This document shows positions 35,980-57,227 of a DNA stretch of 64,000 nt, piece by piece (within the stretch, counting starts at the first letter, position 1; every line of letters starts with the position of its first letter). This DNA comes from Parapedobacter luteus. Its GTDB lineage: Bacteria > Bacteroidota > Bacteroidia > Sphingobacteriales > Sphingobacteriaceae. The notes under the pieces were generated by a model, which worked only from the letters and a program-made list of their open reading frames with translations, ran no database searches and was not told where the DNA came from. Position numbers and translations under genes: made by a program. The DNA lies in assembly GCF_900168055.1 (NCBI RefSeq), contig NZ_FUYS01000005.1, forward strand, positions 248,001 through 312,000, given 5' to 3'.

Positions 35980-37101
35980 TTAGGGCGCGGACAGTGTGAT
36001 GGACACGGCTGAGTTGTTTCTGATTTCCTCGTTCGCCCGTAGGACGAGCCTATCGCCTTCCTTAATATCGCCGAATACCTCGGTTTTGTCCGGTGTTATA
36101 TTCCCCGTCGTAATCGGCACCCAGCTGGCCTTGTTGTCTTCCACTTTGATGACATATACACCCTGTGTACTATTTAACACGGCTGACGATGGGATCGCGA
36201 AACCGTTGGCAAGTCCATTAAGTGGGATGTTTACTTCAGCTACCATTCCGGGCAGCAATCGTTTTTCGGCATTATTCACATCCATCTCGATACGTTGCGA
36301 TCGCAGCCGGGTGTCGAGCGCGCCTGCCAGTCGGTTCACATGGGCCTCGAATGGCTGGTTGGGGAGCGACTTGACCGTGAAGGTCACCTCGCCGTTTTTT
36401 TGTAGATAGCCGGTGTACGCTTCAGGTATGCTGACGACCAGCCGGAGCCGCTGATGATCTTGCAGGGTAAAAATGGGTGCTTCCGAACCGCGGCCGGTAG
36501 GTCCCACATAAGCTCCGGGACTGACATTGCGCGCAGTTATCACGCCGCTGAACGGAGCACGTATTTCCAGGTAATTGCGCATATCGGTCACCTCGGCATG
36601 AGCGGCCTTGGCAGCTTCCAGCTGGGCGAGATCCGCGTTTTGACGCGCCAAGGCGAGGTCCAGATCGTTCTGCGACACCGTGCCCGGCGTTTTGCTGGTC
36701 TGTAGCAGGCGCTCATACGTGGCTTTGCTGGCCAGGTAGGTGGCCTCTTGTGATTTAAGCCGAGATGCAGCGCCCAGCAGCTGTGAATTAAGTTCGGGGG
36801 CCTCCAACGTGGCCAGCAACTGCCCGGCGCGTACTTCGCTGCCGACATCGGCATGCAGCGTTTTTATGAAGCTGCTGACTTTGGCATACAGGTCTACCTG
36901 TTGGTAGGCGACCAGCTCGCCCGGTATCTTGAGCGTTGATGATAACCGGTCAGGCTTCAGTTCGAATGCGGCAATGGCTGGCGCTGCGGCTTCAATTGCC
37001 GCGGAACCACCGGATTCGTTTTCTGCATTTGAAGGGCTGCACGCGTGCCAAGCAGTAGTACTTGCAAGCAGTGCTATCATCAGAATCGTTCTAGTCATCA
37101 T
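35980..37101 (-). CDS. RND efflux periplasmic adaptor (membrane fusion protein)
   Basis: A 373-residue HlyD/AcrA-type adaptor, probably a lipoprotein (signal followed by WHACSP, Cys21). The lipoyl halves are VDLYAKVSSFIKTLHADVGSEVRAGQ and FSGVITARNVSPGAYVGP, flanking a coiled-coil hairpin (~105-170), then the beta-barrel domain and a C-terminal membrane-proximal domain. It links the RND pump to the TolC channel. Its ATG overlaps the stop of the pump gene (ATGA), so the two are translationally coupled. Confidence 0.94.
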   Translation of the reverse strand: MMTRTILMIALLASTTAWHACSPSNAENESGGSAAIEAAAPAIAAFELKPDRLSSTLKIPGELVAYQQVDLYAKVSSFIKTLHADVGSEVRAGQLLATLEAPELNSQLLGAASRLKSQEATYLASKATYERLLQTSKTPGTVSQNDLDLALARQNADLAQLEAAKAAHAEVTDMRNYLEIRAPFSGVITARNVSPGAYVGPTGRGSEAPIFTLQDHQRLRLVVSIPEAYTGYLQKNGEVTFTVKSLPNQPFEAHVNRLAGALDTRLRSQRIEMDVNNAEKRLLPGMVAEVNIPLNGLANGFAIPSSAVLNSTQGVYVIKVEDNKASWVPITTGNITPDKTEVFGDIKEGDRLVLRANEEIRNNSAVSITLSAP

Positions 37102-40100
37102 GTTTTCGATTGGATATAATGTATGCTTTCTTCATCTTCTGGATCCAAAGATACGCTTTGCGTAGAGGCTTTCGCTTGGCCCCAGCCAAATACAAGTGGT
37201 AGGATAAAAAGTGCAGCAACCGTAGAGGCCGCCAACCCGCCAATTACTGCCCGGCCTAATGGTGAAGATTGGTCGCCGCCCTCCCCATGACCAATGGCCA
37301 TGGGGATCATGCCGACAATCATTGCCAAGGCTGTCATCAAAATAGGGCGCATTCGTAAAGCCGCAGCCTCCCGCGCAGCCAATAGGGCATCCCCATTATG
37401 CTTGCGGAGCTGCTCGGCGTTGGTAATCAGCAGCACCGCATTGGATATGGATACACCCACGGACATAATCATTCCCATATACGATTGGAGGTTCAACGTG
37501 GAGCCGGTAGCCATTAGCAGCAGCAATGAACCTACAATCACGGCCGGCACGGTAGCCAGTACGATGCCCGAAACTTTAAACGATTGGAAGTTAGCAGCCA
37601 ACATCAGGAAAATTACGACGATGGCCACCATGAGCCCGTTTTCTAGGCTGCTCATCGTGTCATCCAGGGTTTGGCTCAATCCAATCAGTTCGATGCTAAG
37701 CCCTCGGGGCAGCTCGCCCAGCGAGGCAATTGCCGCCTTCACGTCTTTTGCCGCCGTATTTAGATCCACATCGCTGAGGTTGGCCGTCACGGACAGCATC
37801 GGCAACGCCCCCAGGTTGTCGTTTTCGCCGTTGGTGGTGCCGGTCGTGATCGTTGCCACATCGCCGAGCACGGGGCGCGCGCTGTTGCTAAGCAGCGGTA
37901 TCTCCGCGATGTCATTGATGCTGGCCATTTCGCTTTCGGGTACTTGCACCTGCACGCTATAACTCAGGCCCGCTTCGGCGTCTACCCACGTGTTTTTTTC
38001 GGTAAACCGGGAAGACGATGTCGCCGCGATAAGTGAGCGGCTTATATCGGTCATGTCCAATCCCAACTGAGCCGCTCGGACACGATCGACCTCAATGTTA
38101 ATAGCTGGATAATTGACGGACTGGCCCAGCTGTACATCCCTCAAATAGGGTACGGCGGAGAGCTTGTCGATGACATGTTGGGCATATTGCTGGCTCAGTG
38201 CCTTGTCCCGTCCGGATAGCCGCACTTCGATGGGGGTCGGCGATCCCTGGCTGAGTATTTTCTCGGTAAGTTCGATCGGTTCAAAAGAAAGCTTTACGTC
38301 AGGCAGTTCGGTCCTTAACCGTTGACGGATACGTTCCTTCAGCCCATCCAAATCGGTGTGGTAGTGTTCGGCTAATGACACTTGGACAACCGCTTCATGC
38401 GGCTGGGCCATCCAAAGGAAAATCGGACTGATGGAAAACAGCGACGGGTGGTTGCCAACGTAGGCAGAAGTAATGGCGATGTTTTCCGCACCTACAATGT
38501 CTTTAATAGCTGCCAGCGCATCCAGCGTAATTTTTTCCGTGTACTCGATTCGGGTGCCTTCCGCCGCGCGTAAACGTACCTGAAACTGGCGGCCGTTTAC
38601 CTTAGGCAGGACATCCCTGCCGATGTTCATCATGAGCACTGCCGCAACACCGCATACCACCACGAGGTAAGTGGCCACTATCGGTTTGCGATAGGGCATC
38701 ATCCGCTCGATGAAGCGGAGGTATCGCATGCGCATCCGTTCAAAGAAGCTTACTTTGCCGTCCCGGTTGCTGTCTTCGCGTTCTACCAGCACTTTCTTTT
38801 GGCTCCACGTATCCGTTTCGCTTTCGGCATCCAGGCCCGAAGCGGCGAATTCTTCCGCGTCGCTCATCGCTTGTCCGCGTTCGTTCCTGCGATGCTTGAC
38901 CTTCATCATCCAGTTGGCCATCACGGGCACAAACGTCTGTGCCAGAAAGTAAGAAATGATCATACTGAAGCCGATGGCCAGTGCCAGTGGCAGGAATAGC
39001 GATCCCGGTATACCTCCCATTGTAAACGCTGGAGCAAATACGGCCAATATACAAAGCAGGATGAGCAATTTGGGGAAAGCAATTTCTTTACATGCATCCC
39101 AGATGGCTAATGCCTTGGGCTTACCCATGTCAAGGTGTTGATGAATGTTTTCGATGGTCACGGTACTTTCATCCACGAGAATACCAATCGCCAAGGCAAG
39201 TCCGCTGAGCGTCATGATGTTAATCGTTTGTCCAAAAAGACTCAGGAACAGCACGCCGGAAATGATCGATGTAGGAATCGTAAGTATCACAATGAGTGCA
39301 CCCCGCAAGTCACCCAAGAACAGGATGACCATTAACCCCGTCAGGATGGCACCGATAGCGCCTTCGGTGAGCAAGCTTTTTACCGAGTTGATGACATATG
39401 TGGATTGGTCAAACTCATAACGCAATTGTACATCCTCGGGAAGTTGGCTTTGAATGACGGGCAGTGATTTTTTTAGGTTTTGTACCACTTCCCAGGTAGA
39501 AGCATCAGCGTTTTTCGAGACATTGAGGTATACCGAACGGCGGCCATTGACCAAGGCATACCCGGCGGCAATGTCTGCACCGTCTTCCACCGAGGCGACA
39601 TCGCGTAGGTACAGATTAGATACGCCGCCCTTAAACAGGGGAATGTTTTCGAAATCTCGGATCCCCTTTATGAGTGTGTTTGTCGGGGTGATGTAGTTTT
39701 TATCTCCAACACGTACGTTGCCCGAAGGGGAAGTTTGATTGTTGAAGCGTAGCGCGGCAACCAATTGGTCCGGTGAAAGATTATGCGAGCGGAGCCGTTC
39801 GGGATCCACTTTGATGACCACCGTGCGCACATTGCCGCCAAAAGGCGGCGGCGCTACAAGGCCGGGGATACGGGTGAATGAAGCCCGCACATAGGTGTTG
39901 GCCAGGTTCGCCAGTTCATTATTGTTGCGTATATCGCTGCTCAACACTAACTGGCCCACGGGGAGTGTGGAAGCATCAAACCGGATGATGAACGGCGGGT
40001 TCGAGCCTGCCGGGAAGATGGCTTGAATGCGATTGGCGAAACCGGTGAGCTCGGCGGCCGCCTGAGCCATATCCGTGCCGGGATAGAAGCTGATTTTCAT

Positions 40101-40370
40101 CAGCGTAAGCCCCTGTATGTTTTTGGTCTCAATACTCTTGATGCCATTGACAAACAGCATAATGTTGATATACTGCTTGCCAAACATCGCTTCCATTTGA
40201 TCCGGTGTATAACCCGAAAACGGGTGGGAAAGGTATATGACCGGCAGGTCAAGTTTAGGAAAGATATCCACCTTGATGGAGCTAATTGCTTTGATGCCGA
40301 AGAAAAACAGGCCGGCTACAATAACCAGGATGGTGATGGGTTTACGGAGTGCAAAGCGGATTAAGTTCAT
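37098..40370 (-). CDS. RND multidrug-type efflux pump (AcrB/MdtB-like)
   Basis: A 1090-residue RND inner-membrane pump with twelve predicted membrane helices and two large periplasmic domains. It begins MNLIRFALRKPITILV and has the repeated fold of the HAE1/hydrophobe family (GLALAIGILVDESTVTIENIHQHL in the first half, and SYMGMIMSVGVSISNAVLLITNAE in the second). Heavy-metal (CusA) types usually carry a methionine set that I do not see, so organic substrates are likelier. The order TolC-pump-adaptor is typical of Bacteroidota. Confidence 0.95.
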   Translation of the reverse strand: MNLIRFALRKPITILVIVAGLFFFGIKAISSIKVDIFPKLDLPVIYLSHPFSGYTPDQMEAMFGKQYINIMLFVNGIKSIETKNIQGLTLMKISFYPGTDMAQAAAELTGFANRIQAIFPAGSNPPFIIRFDASTLPVGQLVLSSDIRNNNELANLANTYVRASFTRIPGLVAPPPFGGNVRTVVIKVDPERLRSHNLSPDQLVAALRFNNQTSPSGNVRVGDKNYITPTNTLIKGIRDFENIPLFKGGVSNLYLRDVASVEDGADIAAGYALVNGRRSVYLNVSKNADASTWEVVQNLKKSLPVIQSQLPEDVQLRYEFDQSTYVINSVKSLLTEGAIGAILTGLMVILFLGDLRGALIVILTIPTSIISGVLFLSLFGQTINIMTLSGLALAIGILVDESTVTIENIHQHLDMGKPKALAIWDACKEIAFPKLLILLCILAVFAPAFTMGGIPGSLFLPLALAIGFSMIISYFLAQTFVPVMANWMMKVKHRRNERGQAMSDAEEFAASGLDAESETDTWSQKKVLVEREDSNRDGKVSFFERMRMRYLRFIERMMPYRKPIVATYLVVVCGVAAVLMMNIGRDVLPKVNGRQFQVRLRAAEGTRIEYTEKITLDALAAIKDIVGAENIAITSAYVGNHPSLFSISPIFLWMAQPHEAVVQVSLAEHYHTDLDGLKERIRQRLRTELPDVKLSFEPIELTEKILSQGSPTPIEVRLSGRDKALSQQYAQHVIDKLSAVPYLRDVQLGQSVNYPAINIEVDRVRAAQLGLDMTDISRSLIAATSSSRFTEKNTWVDAEAGLSYSVQVQVPESEMASINDIAEIPLLSNSARPVLGDVATITTGTTNGENDNLGALPMLSVTANLSDVDLNTAAKDVKAAIASLGELPRGLSIELIGLSQTLDDTMSSLENGLMVAIVVIFLMLAANFQSFKVSGIVLATVPAVIVGSLLLLMATGSTLNLQSYMGMIMSVGVSISNAVLLITNAEQLRKHNGDALLAAREAAALRMRPILMTALAMIVGMIPMAIGHGEGGDQSSPLGRAVIGGLAASTVAALFILPLVFGWGQAKASTQSVSLDPEDEESIHYIQSKT

Positions 40371-40376
40371 AGACGG

Positions 40377-41774
40377 CTATAATTCATTCATAAAAAGTTC
40401 AATATCTCCCGAGGCGGCGGCTTTGAGCAGAAATGCCTGCCACACATTGTTATAGGCGATATCCCGGTCGGTTTCAGCGCGAACCAGCGCATACAGCGCT
40501 TGCGTAACATCGACCAAGTTGGCAAGTCCGTTGTTATACAGCACGGTTCGCTGTTGATAAGCTTCCGCTGCGGCTTTTACCTGTATGGGTGCTTCCCGGT
40601 AATTTCGCAGGGCATTTGCAATCTTAGCGTCTGCCAACTGCAATTGAGCAGAAAGCTGCTGGCTAGCCAGGTGATATTCTTCACGTAGGCCTGTGGAAAC
40701 GAGCTGCTGGGCTTTTATCTGCATGGCAACGCGCGCGATCTGCGTAATGTTCCAAGTAATGCCCAGCCCCAGGAGGTAATTGGTGCGTGAGGGATTAATG
40801 CCGTCCCAGTAACTCCGGGTATATGCATGCTGGTCCTGCGCGTAATTGCTGGAAAACCCCGAGGCGCGCGTCTGAAAAACGCCCACCAGCGATACGGTCG
40901 GAAAACTAAACGTTTTGAAGTACCGTGCCTGCCGGTCATTGAAGTCCACGCGGCTTTGGTACCACTGCAATTCAGGATGCCCTGAAAGTACCGAATCGCT
41001 GGACAATTCGCCCAACGTATTGGGGATGCGGGTGAAGAAAAAGCTGTCCAGCCTGAATTCAGTAGGCGCTACGCCCATCAATACGGCGAGCTGAGTGGCT
41101 TGTTCCTGTTCAAGGTCTTGGGCTTTGACTAATGCAATATGCGCGTTCGAAACTTCCGCATTGGCCTGTGACGAATCTACGCCGGCAATGAGCCCGTTCA
41201 GGGCGCGGGTGACGGTGACTTGGCGGAAGGTATCCGCCCGTGCCAGGTTTTTGCGATAGGATTCCGTGAGCCGTTGCGCAGCCAGGAGGTTAAGGTAGGC
41301 TGCGGCCACCTTTACGCGGTGCTGAAATACTTCCTGTTGATAGTCCCGCTGCTCGCGCGTGGCTGCCGCCGCTGCGGTCTTCATCCGTTCGTGAGCACGG
41401 CCGAACGCAAAAACTTCCCAGTTAATGTTGCCTAAATACAGGGCGCCGAACGCTGCATTCCAATTCTGGTCCGGAAGGGGTAAGCCGGATGAGCTCACGC
41501 CCAGCCCACCGAACCCGTACGCAGGGCCGTTTTGCCCGTTGACCGTGCCATATACCTGCTGGGCAGACAACGAAAAGTTAGGCAGGTAATCCCGTTTGGC
41601 TTGTGAAACTGCTGCGTTTGCGGCCTCCGCATAAGCAGCCTTGGCTTTGATCCGTCCGTAATTTTCTGTTGCCGTTTGAATGGCTTGTTTGAGGGAAAGC
41701 GTTTGCTGTGCCTGCAGGTAGTGCCCCATAAAAAGGCATGTCAATAACAGCAAATAGCATGAAATAGATCGCAT
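40377..41774 (-). CDS. TolC family outer-membrane efflux channel
   Basis: A 465-residue exported protein (signal peptide ending at LQAQ). It has two copies of the outer-membrane efflux protein repeat, with long coiled-coil helices (for example TFRQVTVTRALNGLIAGVDSSQANAEVSNAHIALVKAQDLE) separated by strands. It forms the channel for the RND pump encoded next (6-bp gap). Its promoter contains the direct-repeat motif found before the response-regulator gene. Confidence 0.94.
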   Translation of the reverse strand: MRSISCYLLLLTCLFMGHYLQAQQTLSLKQAIQTATENYGRIKAKAAYAEAANAAVSQAKRDYLPNFSLSAQQVYGTVNGQNGPAYGFGGLGVSSSGLPLPDQNWNAAFGALYLGNINWEVFAFGRAHERMKTAAAAATREQRDYQQEVFQHRVKVAAAYLNLLAAQRLTESYRKNLARADTFRQVTVTRALNGLIAGVDSSQANAEVSNAHIALVKAQDLEQEQATQLAVLMGVAPTEFRLDSFFFTRIPNTLGELSSDSVLSGHPELQWYQSRVDFNDRQARYFKTFSFPTVSLVGVFQTRASGFSSNYAQDQHAYTRSYWDGINPSRTNYLLGLGITWNITQIARVAMQIKAQQLVSTGLREEYHLASQQLSAQLQLADAKIANALRNYREAPIQVKAAAEAYQQRTVLYNNGLANLVDVTQALYALVRAETDRDIAYNNVWQAFLLKAAASGDIELFMNEL

Positions 41775-41811: not shown

Positions 41812-41845
41812 CAAATTTAGCATGCTATTTTGAAGTAATTTTGAA
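41812..41845 (-). promoter_or_regulatory. tolC promoter with direct-repeat operator
   Basis: On the minus strand TTCAAA (41845-41840), 5 bp, TTCAAA (41834-41829), 9 bp, then TAAATTTG (41819-41812), 37 nt before the tolC ATG. The two half-sites are 11 bp apart, as in PhoB/OmpR-type sites, and occupy the place of the -33 element. The promoter of the adjacent response-regulator gene has the same arrangement. Confidence 0.72.
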
Positions 41846-41896
41846 GAAATGGACAAGATAACGGGCCTATCCGTAACAAAAATGTATAGAATCGGA

Positions 41897-43198
41897 TTAG
41901 GCGCCGGCAAATACTTCGGTTTTGCGTACTTGCACCTTGTTGGGATCGAATAAGACCGATACGCAATGCCAACCATCGGCATAATGGTAAGCGATATTAA
42001 AACCACTGATTTCACAAATTTGCCTGACGATTGCCAGGCCGAGGCCGATACCATCACTGCTCTGGTTGTTTTTCTTGAATCGTTGGAAAAGCTCCTCCGT
42101 TGGTGTTTTGGGTGCAATACCTGTGTTGCGGACAACCAGTTGTTCCGAAGTGAGGTTTACTACGATGTGACCTTCCTGGACATTGTGACGAATGGCATTG
42201 TGCAGCAAGTTGTTGAGCAAGATTTCGGCCAACGTCGGATGTAGCTTTACATGCACATTTTTATTGACCTGCCGTTGCACAGTAAGCGATTTCAGCTGGA
42301 TAAGCTCCTGGTAGGCTGAGAGTGTGGCGGTTGTTAGCGTGCACAGCCGGATATGTTCGGACGGCTCAAATTCGTGGTTTTCCAGTTTGGTCAGCAATAA
42401 AAGTGACCGGTTGATACGCGAGAGCTTTTCCACGGAATGTTGTGTTTCGGCTATCAGCTGGGCTTGATCGGCCCGTATCGGCGTATTGGCCAGTAAATCC
42501 AGTTTACTGCGGATAACGGCCAACGGCGTTTGAAGTTCGTGCGATGCGTTTTCGCTGAATTCTTTGAGCGAAGCATAGTCCTCACTGATTTTATCAGTCA
42601 TTTTTTGTAAAAGCATGTTCAGCTCCTTAAACTCCTTGGTGCTCGTCTGCGGGAATCCAATTTTTTCTTTTTGCTTTAAGCTGAACGATTGTATCGCCCT
42701 GAGCGTTTGGTAGAAGGGCTTAAGGATATAGCCAGATACGATATGCGCGGTGAGTGCTACGCAACAGGCAATTAGCAACATTTTCCAGATTACGCCACTC
42801 ATCATTCCGGCGAGGATTTGCTTCGCTTTGATGACGTAATCATGCGACTCAATCCGGTAGTAAGTGTCGCCGATTTGGTAATAAGAAGTAACGGTAAGCT
42901 GGCATTCTTCACGCTGTAGATCTTCGTTAAAATAGTTTTCTTCCGTTATCCGAACGTGTTCATCAGGGAGTGGTCCAGCTATTTTCGACACATGGATCGG
43001 TCTTCCCTGCGCGTATTTTTCATGTGGGATACCTTGGCGGAGTTGGGAGGCGACTACACCATTGACCTGCGTAAGCCGTTCGATTTCCGCTTCGTCTATT
43101 TTTTTGCGGATGTTGTAATGGCTAATCGCCATACTGATTGGGGTGGTAAGAATCAGTATGCCCACAAACCACAGGGTGAATTTATTAACCAGCTTCAT
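41897..43198 (-). CDS. Sensor histidine kinase of the efflux cluster
   Basis: A 433-residue membrane kinase: two membrane helices (~8-28 and ~140-160) around a periplasmic sensor of ~110 residues, a short linker, the H-box SENASHELQTPLAVIR with the phosphorylated His220, N-box NNLLHNAIRHN, and a G-box DGIGLGLAIV. The start at 43198 (MKLVNKF) overlaps the end of the response-regulator gene by 14 bp; the longer frame lies inside that gene. An ATG at 43210 is also possible. It probably senses the substrate of the downstream RND pump. Confidence 0.93.
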   Translation of the reverse strand: MKLVNKFTLWFVGILILTTPISMAISHYNIRKKIDEAEIERLTQVNGVVASQLRQGIPHEKYAQGRPIHVSKIAGPLPDEHVRITEENYFNEDLQREECQLTVTSYYQIGDTYYRIESHDYVIKAKQILAGMMSGVIWKMLLIACCVALTAHIVSGYILKPFYQTLRAIQSFSLKQKEKIGFPQTSTKEFKELNMLLQKMTDKISEDYASLKEFSENASHELQTPLAVIRSKLDLLANTPIRADQAQLIAETQHSVEKLSRINRSLLLLTKLENHEFEPSEHIRLCTLTTATLSAYQELIQLKSLTVQRQVNKNVHVKLHPTLAEILLNNLLHNAIRHNVQEGHIVVNLTSEQLVVRNTGIAPKTPTEELFQRFKKNNQSSDGIGLGLAIVRQICEISGFNIAYHYADGWHCVSVLFDPNKVQVRKTEVFAGA

Positions 43199-43877
43199 AC
43201 TTGTCTGCATTGAATTTGTAGCCCAATCCGTATACGGTGTCAATGTAGTCCCGTCCGCCCAGGTGATTGATTTTCTTTCGGAGGTTTTTGATGTGCTGGT
43301 ACACGAAGTCAAAATTAGGAAGGCCGTCAATGTAGTCTCCCCAAAGGTGGATAGCAATGGCTTGTCGAGACAATACCCGATTCTTGTTGACGACCAGGTA
43401 GAGCAGTAGTTCAAACTCCTTGCGAGTAATATCCAATAGCAGGCCGTTTACCCGAGCCTCAAACGAATCGGTGTTGATAACCAGCTCGTTAAAGGCGATG
43501 CTGTTGCTCCCGCCAAGCTGCTTGCGCCGGTAAATGGCCCGTAGCCGGGCATGCAGTTCAGACAGGTGGAAAGGTTTCGTCAGGTAGTCGTCTGCCCCCA
43601 ATTCCAACCCGCTGATTTTGTCATCCAGCGCATTTTTTGCGGATATGATGAGGATTCCGCTTTGAATTTTTCCATCTTTTATCCGTGTGAGCAAGTCGAG
43701 GCCGTTCCCGTCGGGAAGCATGATGTCGAGCAGGATACAATCGTAGGAAAACAGGTGTAATTTCTCCCATGCGTTTGAGTAATCTTCCGCCAATTCGCAA
43801 ATATACCCTTCTTGGGCCATTAGTCCCAGAATGCTGCTTGCAAGCTCACGATTGTCTTCGATGACAAGGACTTTCAT
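43185..43877 (-). CDS. OmpR/PhoB-family response regulator of the efflux cluster
   Basis: A 230-residue regulator. The receiver domain has acidic residues Glu7-Asp8, the phosphorylated Asp51 in LLDIMLPDG, and Lys101. The C-terminal winged helix (about residues 130-226) contains LTRKEFELL-like DITRKEFELLLYLVVNKNRVLSRQAI and VYGLGYKF. It is the first gene of a minus-strand run: regulator, kinase, tolC, pump, adaptor. Its own promoter and that of tolC share the same operator, so it most likely controls both. Confidence 0.95.
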   Translation of the reverse strand: MKVLVIEDNRELASSILGLMAQEGYICELAEDYSNAWEKLHLFSYDCILLDIMLPDGNGLDLLTRIKDGKIQSGILIISAKNALDDKISGLELGADDYLTKPFHLSELHARLRAIYRRKQLGGSNSIAFNELVINTDSFEARVNGLLLDITRKEFELLLYLVVNKNRVLSRQAIAIHLWGDYIDGLPNFDFVYQHIKNLRKKINHLGGRDYIDTVYGLGYKFNADKYEAG

Positions 43878-43916
43878 CTATTCATTGTTTTAACCACGCC
43901 GGGTTCATGGTAAAAA

Positions 43917-43950
43917 CAAAGATAGGATAGAAATTTGAATAAATTTTGAA
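43917..43950 (-). promoter_or_regulatory. Response-regulator promoter with direct-repeat operator
   Basis: On the minus strand TTCAAA (43950-43945), 5 bp, TTCAAA (43939-43934), 9 bp, then TATCTTTG (43924-43917), 39 nt before the ATG. Both spacings are the same as in the tolC promoter, and the first 9 bases of the operator, TTCAAAATT, are identical in the two. Confidence 0.72.
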
Positions 43951-56990: not shown

Positions 56991-57227
56991 CATTTTGGTA
57001 TACTGTTTTGACCTGGTGCCCGACCTCGCTTGTTGAATGCGGATGCATCCTGCCGGACCAAAAATTCGGAAATGGATAAAAATGGTAAAATACCATAGTA
57101 TTCGGTCAAAATATAATCAAAAGCTTTGGCTATTTTTGGAAATTCTAATCAATAAAAACCAATCGCTGGCATAGCCGGAAATAGGGCATTTATATCGAAT
57201 TGACCTACGATCTTTTTGTTTTTGCAT

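Follow-up and report, generated by a model that had tools for sequence, protein, structure and literature searches.

Genes of the efflux cluster

The window, i.e. the whole 64-kb stretch of DNA that was analysed, carries a minus-strand cluster of genes for a response regulator (RR), a sensor histidine kinase (HK) and the components of an RND efflux system (Table 1). The RR combines a receiver with a winged-helix Trans_reg_C domain, both with Pfam scores above cut-off, which assigns it to the OmpR/PhoB family. Its phosphorylation residues (E7 D8, D51, S79 and K101) are present and are invariant in 14 aligned orthologs. The best NCBIfam matches of the RR were CtrA (169.4 bits), RppA (164.6 bits) and PmrA (162.4 bits, against an equivalog cut-off of 330), all far below cut-offs, and the best PDB matches were DrrD (1kgs, 2.1e-41) and the BasR chains 8jo2 and 4s04 (E about 1e-36). 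The HK contains the H-box SHELQTP and the motif GIGLGL; its profile search used 41897-43201, one codon extra. The tripartite RND set is complete, with genes for the outer-membrane factor, pump and adaptor found together (OEP, ACR_tran and HlyD_D23/RND_mfp). No named drug or metal permease subfamily could be assigned, as all 13 of the listed NCBIfam permease models scored below cut-off, the best being RND_permease_2 (520.8 versus a cut-off of 1250).

Table 1. Features of the efflux cluster and its promoters, with positions in the window.
Feature	Coordinates	Strand	Basis
11-bp direct repeat TTCAAAATTTATTCAAA, predicted RR-dimer site, about -38 to -22	43934..43950	-	RR promoter, sequence
-7 box TATCTTTG of RR promoter	43917..43924	-	Sequence; TAnnTTTG consensus
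Mini-ORF MNPAWLKQ* in RR leader	43882..43908	-	Alignment to G003, translation
OmpR/PhoB-family RR, 230 aa, recognition helix ...FVYQHIKNLRKK	43185..43877	-	Pfam Response_reg 91.7, Trans_reg_C 65.5 bits
Sensor HK (HisKA, HATPase_c; PorY-family HK model)	41897..43198	-	Profile searches, motifs
11-bp direct repeat TTCAAAATTACTTCAAA upstream of tolC	41829..41845	-	Sequence
-7 box TAAATTTG of tolC promoter	41812..41819	-	Sequence
TolC-family outer-membrane efflux protein	40377..41774	-	Pfam OEP 107.1 bits
RND transporter, AcrB family	37098..40370	-	Pfam ACR_tran 611.9 bits
RND periplasmic adaptor	35980..37101	-	NCBIfam RND_mfp 219.4 bits, cut-off 94.9

Promoter elements upstream of the RR and tolC

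Upstream of the RR gene, positions 43950-43917 of the minus strand read TTCAAAATTTATTCAAATTTCTATCCTATCTTTG, and upstream of tolC positions 41845-41812 of the same strand read TTCAAAATTACTTCAAAATAGCATGCTAAATTTG, exactly as an earlier note on this DNA had stated. The period of 11 bp, spacer of 9 bp and TAnnTTTG box claimed there are common to both sites, which follow the composite pattern TTCAAAATT-nn-TTCAAA-N9-TAnnTTTG with a half-site consensus of CTTCAAAATTn, present twice, head-to-tail. No TTTG occurs near -33 in either promoter and the spacer is 9 at both, in agreement with the proposal that the repeats replace the -33 element.

With up to three mismatches allowed, the window contained three matches to the pattern compared with a mean of 0.01 in 100 dinucleotide shuffles; two of the three are exact and correspond to the sites described above. 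A scan of the 4.83-Mb genome likewise returned exactly two exact matches, before the RR and tolC. Up to three mismatches yielded five matches in the genome (two exact, one with two mismatches and two with three), and the reversed pattern yielded one.

A weaker element with three mismatches (57105-57138, plus strand) lies 77 nt 5' of an ORF that we take to be ECF-sigma-like, followed by a presumably FecR-like ORF. Three relatives gave no match to the ECF-sigma-like ORF at E<=1e-40, and the site was rejected as a third genomic target, being either chance or unexplained.

Conservation among RR orthologs

An ortholog of the RR (E<=1e-84) was found in 20 of the 399 family genomes searched, the window genome counted, and 15 of these 20 loci, its own included, hold the whole RR-HK-tolC-RND-adaptor cluster. 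The five loci without the full cluster comprise one at a contig edge (G110) and four without adjoining tolC-RND genes (G024, G014, G068 and G143). The element proved to be conserved in relatives at both loci: scores of at least 13.5 were obtained upstream of tolC in 15/15 operons (dinucleotide shuffles, 6/3000) and upstream of the RR in 17/20 ortholog regions (dinucleotide shuffles, 10/4000). A good element before the RR was missing in the remaining three, namely G026 (11.5), G110 (10.0) and G143 (12.5, far upstream), and in genus g15 the RR element was located 75-201 nt from the ATG in four of five orthologs. The tandem half-sites, 11 bp apart as is the form in the OmpR/PhoB family, are thus present and conserved as predicted RR sites.

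Across 206 kb of ortholog loci, 33 forward matches scored at least 13.5, 32 of them at RR or tolC promoters, and the reverse strand gave one. Furthermore, footprint analysis of 15 tolC and 17 RR regions (RR rows of G026, G110 and G143 omitted) yielded 1.50 bits per column for the tolC half-sites versus 0.37 for the upstream flank, and 1.18 versus 0.13 for the RR half-sites; because the rows were aligned on their best-scoring element, the half-site values are inherently raised. Several tolC promoters have a poor -7 box, which reads CAATTTCA in G022, G090 and G099.

A TTTGTTAC-like block (at most one mismatch) was observed upstream of the tolC repeat at window positions of about 41873-41880 (minus strand). 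Such a block lies 33-35 or 44-45 bp 5' of the tolC repeat in nine of 15 operons and at any distance in ten, which is only slightly above a lenient control of at most eight in shuffles, with just 400 8-mers tried in each. In some relatives its position is within the final part of the HK coding sequence.

Distribution of the motif relative to regulator and pump

The earlier note had held that occurrence of the motif in many unrelated promoters would speak against its reading. Such spread was not found in a scan of 36 genomes, comprising 18 RR-positive genomes (20 less G110 and G143) and 18 without an RR ortholog: at up to two mismatches there were 29 matches, 23 of which were in RR-positive genomes and 22 of those at RR or tolC promoters. 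The 18 RR-negative genomes contained six matches versus three for the reversed pattern, which had six over the 36 genomes, three in each set. At this threshold G022 and G099 gave no match. An extra match in G014, within the final part of a short ORF that no same-strand gene follows, was set aside as chance or unexplained.

The element follows the RR rather than the pump or transporter. Five homologues of the pump operon without a linked RR ortholog (in G010, G034, G032 and G021, plus a second, unlinked copy in G066) carry no motif; their pumps are 62-71% identical to the window pump, and these negative controls therefore count as diverged. In G024, G014 and G068, where a linked pump is absent, the RR-HK pair adjoins a TonB-receptor-like outer-membrane gene, 5' of which are 3-4 head-to-tail 11-bp units (read by eye), located directly after the HK gene at L040, L041 and L075. 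G617, which belongs to a different family, has a gene pair for an alcohol dehydrogenase and an aldo-keto reductase inserted between HK and tolC, and the element is present before the RR, before the inserted pair and before tolC.

In G020, which has only a paralogous RR, three CTTCAGA-type elements (L145 site 1967, L146 reverse-complemented site 4599 and L147 site 2001) precede a PAP2 gene, a Rieske/thioredoxin gene pair and a sulfatase-family gene. The Rieske/thioredoxin pair is located two genes, about 1.4 kb, downstream of the paralogous RR-HK pair, and the elements are likely to represent a multi-target regulon of the paralog.

A common layout upstream of paralogous RRs

The same layout was noticed upstream of many paralogous RRs while paralogs were being checked. 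The element score was defined with 14 paralog regions already in view and was applied unchanged to 49 held-out regions; these came from a class-level search with matches in 51 of 247 genomes (E<=1e-68). These regions represent 48 paralogs and one ortholog (L231), with related RRs among them being non-independent. Against their own shuffles, 29/49 reached p<=0.05 (about 2.5 expected), including 17 regions from 12 family codes at the floor of p=0.01, and 20/49 were above p 0.05. Scores of at least 13 were reached by 25/49 held-out regions in the forward orientation versus 4/49 reverse-complemented and 0/49 reversed. A grid scan over periods of 8-15 and spacers of 4-15 peaked at 11/9 (mean z 2.59), followed by 2.02 at 11/10 and an average of 0.49 for all cells except the peak. 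A site in place of the -33/-35 element at a fixed distance from the -7/-10 box, as in class II promoters, is therefore found here, given the spacer of 9 and the grid peak at 11/9.

The two closest paralogous RRs of the window genome have no good element (9.5 and 11.0). Since a control search of 60 genomes for PhoB-family matches at E<=1e-70 came back empty, three genomes supplied other OmpR-type RRs as the control. Among these, none of ten RRs with a helix other than Tyr-X-His/Gln reached 12, while three of six in the Tyr clade reached 12.5; this control is weak because reverse-complemented regions reach at least 12 in 4/16.

Leader length

The distances to the ATG given in the earlier note (39 nt for the RR and 37 nt for tolC) are correct. 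Their agreement, offered there as supporting evidence, was rejected as such and is regarded as coincidence, because it is not conserved across RR orthologs and the window RR leader exceeds by 32 nt that of G003, its nearest relative. With ortholog starts estimated from tblastn, box-to-ATG distances were 4-8 nt in 10/17 RR orthologs with an element and 35-58 nt in 15/15 tolC genes, several of the tolC estimates falling off a start codon. The extra 32-nt stretch is flanked by two copies of ATGAA, and the mini-ORF ends 4 nt before the RR start; both the mini-ORF and the extra stretch are probably lineage-specific.

Short leaders were common beyond the orthologs, with the window RR as an exception: the gap between box and start codon is 4-7 nt in 21/29 held-out regions scoring at least 12.5, and 4-8 nt in 40/59 selected regions. 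In F. psychrophilum the -7 box consensus TAnnTTTG occupies -12 to -5 (PMC9723704), so that a box 4-8 nt from the AUG would place the transcription start on the AUG or a few nucleotides from it. Many RR mRNAs are accordingly predicted to be near-leaderless and autoregulated, and these transcripts would be directly testable against existing start-site maps. To our knowledge, leaderless mRNAs are rare in Bacteroidota. They made up 5.5% of the mRNAs mapped in F. psychrophilum, and 5'UTRs below 10 nt accounted for about 3.7% in B. thetaiotaomicron (PMC7366714).

Recognition helix and half-site sequence

Covariation between the RR recognition helix and the half-site was examined in 59 of 98 regions; the score and distance limits that selected them were set once earlier results were known. 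A T at half-site base 2 was present in 47/54 half-sites of Tyr-Gln-His/Tyr-Ala-His RRs, 2/24 of Tyr-Ser-His RRs and 13/18 of Tyr-Thr-His RRs. The contrast between the Gln/Ala and Ser helix classes gave a Fisher value of 2e-11, uncorrected for descent; the Fisher tests omit YSQ, YNH, YVH, YAQ and unassigned rows (11/59). On a receiver-domain tree, for which the L278 helix class was entered by hand, Ser changes six times. Of three supported independent pairs, the first half-site base went the same way in 2.6 on average and the other way in 0.0, and the second half-site base in 1.1 and 0.1, respectively. Three supported independent pairs are too few for significance of the covariation after phylogeny, and the link between the Tyr-X-His residue (Gln/Ala versus Ser) and half-site base 2 is suggestive only.

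On balance we lean, with limited conviction, towards a class-wide code in Bacteroidota, in which a large OmpR-type clade would autoactivate through two 11-bp half-sites (TnCA[AG]A) in place of the -33 element, 9 (or 10) bp from TAnnTTTG, with near-leaderless RR mRNAs and a helix residue that sets half-site base 2. If this is true, the targets of each regulator could be read from its own sequence.

Proposed mechanism and alternatives

We consider it very likely that both elements of the window are sites of the adjacent RR, acting as a class II activator of its own RR-HK operon and of the tolC-RND-adaptor operon. A phosphorylated RR dimer would sit head-to-tail on the two 11-bp half-sites, from about -38 to -22, thereby taking the place of the Bacteroidota -33 element, and would recruit the unusual primary sigma factor to a -33-less promoter with a TAnnTTTG box. 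By driving its own RR-HK operon the RR would create positive feedback, and by driving the tolC-RND-adaptor operon it would complete a local two-target regulon. The self-regulated efflux regulon suggested in the earlier note is supported by conservation at both loci and by the tracking of the RR, while RR binding, phosphorylation dependence, activation itself, the transcription starts and the sensed signal are what we infer from sequence. Since the repeat spans roughly -38 to -22 in promoters that have no TTTG around -33, class II activation is the most economical reading.

The main rival, which we judge unlikely, is that the RR binds these sites but represses, blocking RNA polymerase at -38 to -22, so that the RR would lower its own expression and the pump would be induced once binding is lost. 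The site does overlap a region that polymerase must contact, but no competing -33 TTTG lies under the repeat, the clade-wide peak for the repeat-to-box spacer is at 9, as expected for productive sigma contact, and the extra units in G024, G014 and G068 are upstream and in register (by eye). Binding of the repeat by another regulator common to many promoters appears very unlikely. Although the six matches in the 18 genomes without an RR ortholog speak for such a regulator, three of them, all in G020, start with CTTCAGA, and one of these is near a paralogous RR-HK pair; moreover, the motif is missing from pump-operon homologues that have no linked RR ortholog, RR-linked non-pump genes carry the element, and the same layout recurs 5' of many paralogous RRs. 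That the similarity is due to chance, or is a generic feature of AT-rich promoters, is scarcely credible: both regions are AT-rich and the layout is partly an ordinary -7 box, but the expectation in the window is 0.01, shuffles only rarely reach 13.5 at either promoter, the held-out scores depend on orientation, and conservation at the RR and tolC in relatives contradicts this explanation.

Comparison with known systems

PhoB and PmrA recognize head-to-tail half-sites 11 bp apart, with class II overlap of the -35 element in the case of PhoB, and the PmrA box, CTTAAG-N5-CTTAAG, consists of tandem half-sites with an 11-bp period. PmrA/BasR resembles the present system in this arrangement and in being among the best full-length matches of the RR; it differs in that the RR falls short of the equivalog cut-off, and the half-site here is CTTCAAA, with a Bacteroidota -7 box and a tolC-RND target. 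The statement in the earlier note that 11-bp direct repeats are usual for the OmpR/PhoB family agrees with the head-to-tail half-sites 11 bp apart known for ArcA; ArcA sites are direct repeats with 11-bp centre spacing, often of 3-5 units (PMC3798270), which the 3-4 units in G024, G014 and G068 resemble. The PhoB pho box and ArcA boxes are alike in having two direct repeats with 11-bp centre spacing, whereas half-site sequence, sigma factor and promoter type all differ from those found here.

In BaeSR, CusRS and AgrR-type systems an RR-HK pair controls the RND efflux operon next to it. AgrR is described as part of an efflux-linked two-component system (PMC7380067). In contrast to these systems, the RR here is of a different clade and phylum, and two separate promoters in one cluster have identical element geometry. 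Self-activation by a two-component system located next to an efflux operon is already known. The promoter layout in Bacteroidota, the breadth of its occurrence and the shortness of the RR leaders were not found described in the open-access literature among the matches listed, where the motif and regulon were likewise absent.

Few activator sites are known to us for the atypical primary sigma factor of Bacteroidota. In F. johnsoniae, one study identified no motif at -33 (PMC7366714). If the fixed repeat-spacer-box rule and the helix-to-base correspondence hold, the targets of many uncharacterised two-component systems, efflux operons included, would become predictable from genomes.

PorX-type RRs combine a CheY-like domain with a PglZ-type domain. 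The HK of the window resembles PorXY systems in exceeding the NCBIfam PorY-family cut-off (397.4 versus 350), whereas its partner is a winged-helix OmpR-type RR, with just Response_reg and Trans_reg_C at E<=0.001, and the linked genes encode efflux. Because the HK passes this model though its partner RR is OmpR-type, the NCBIfam PorY-family model may over-label efflux-linked kinases.
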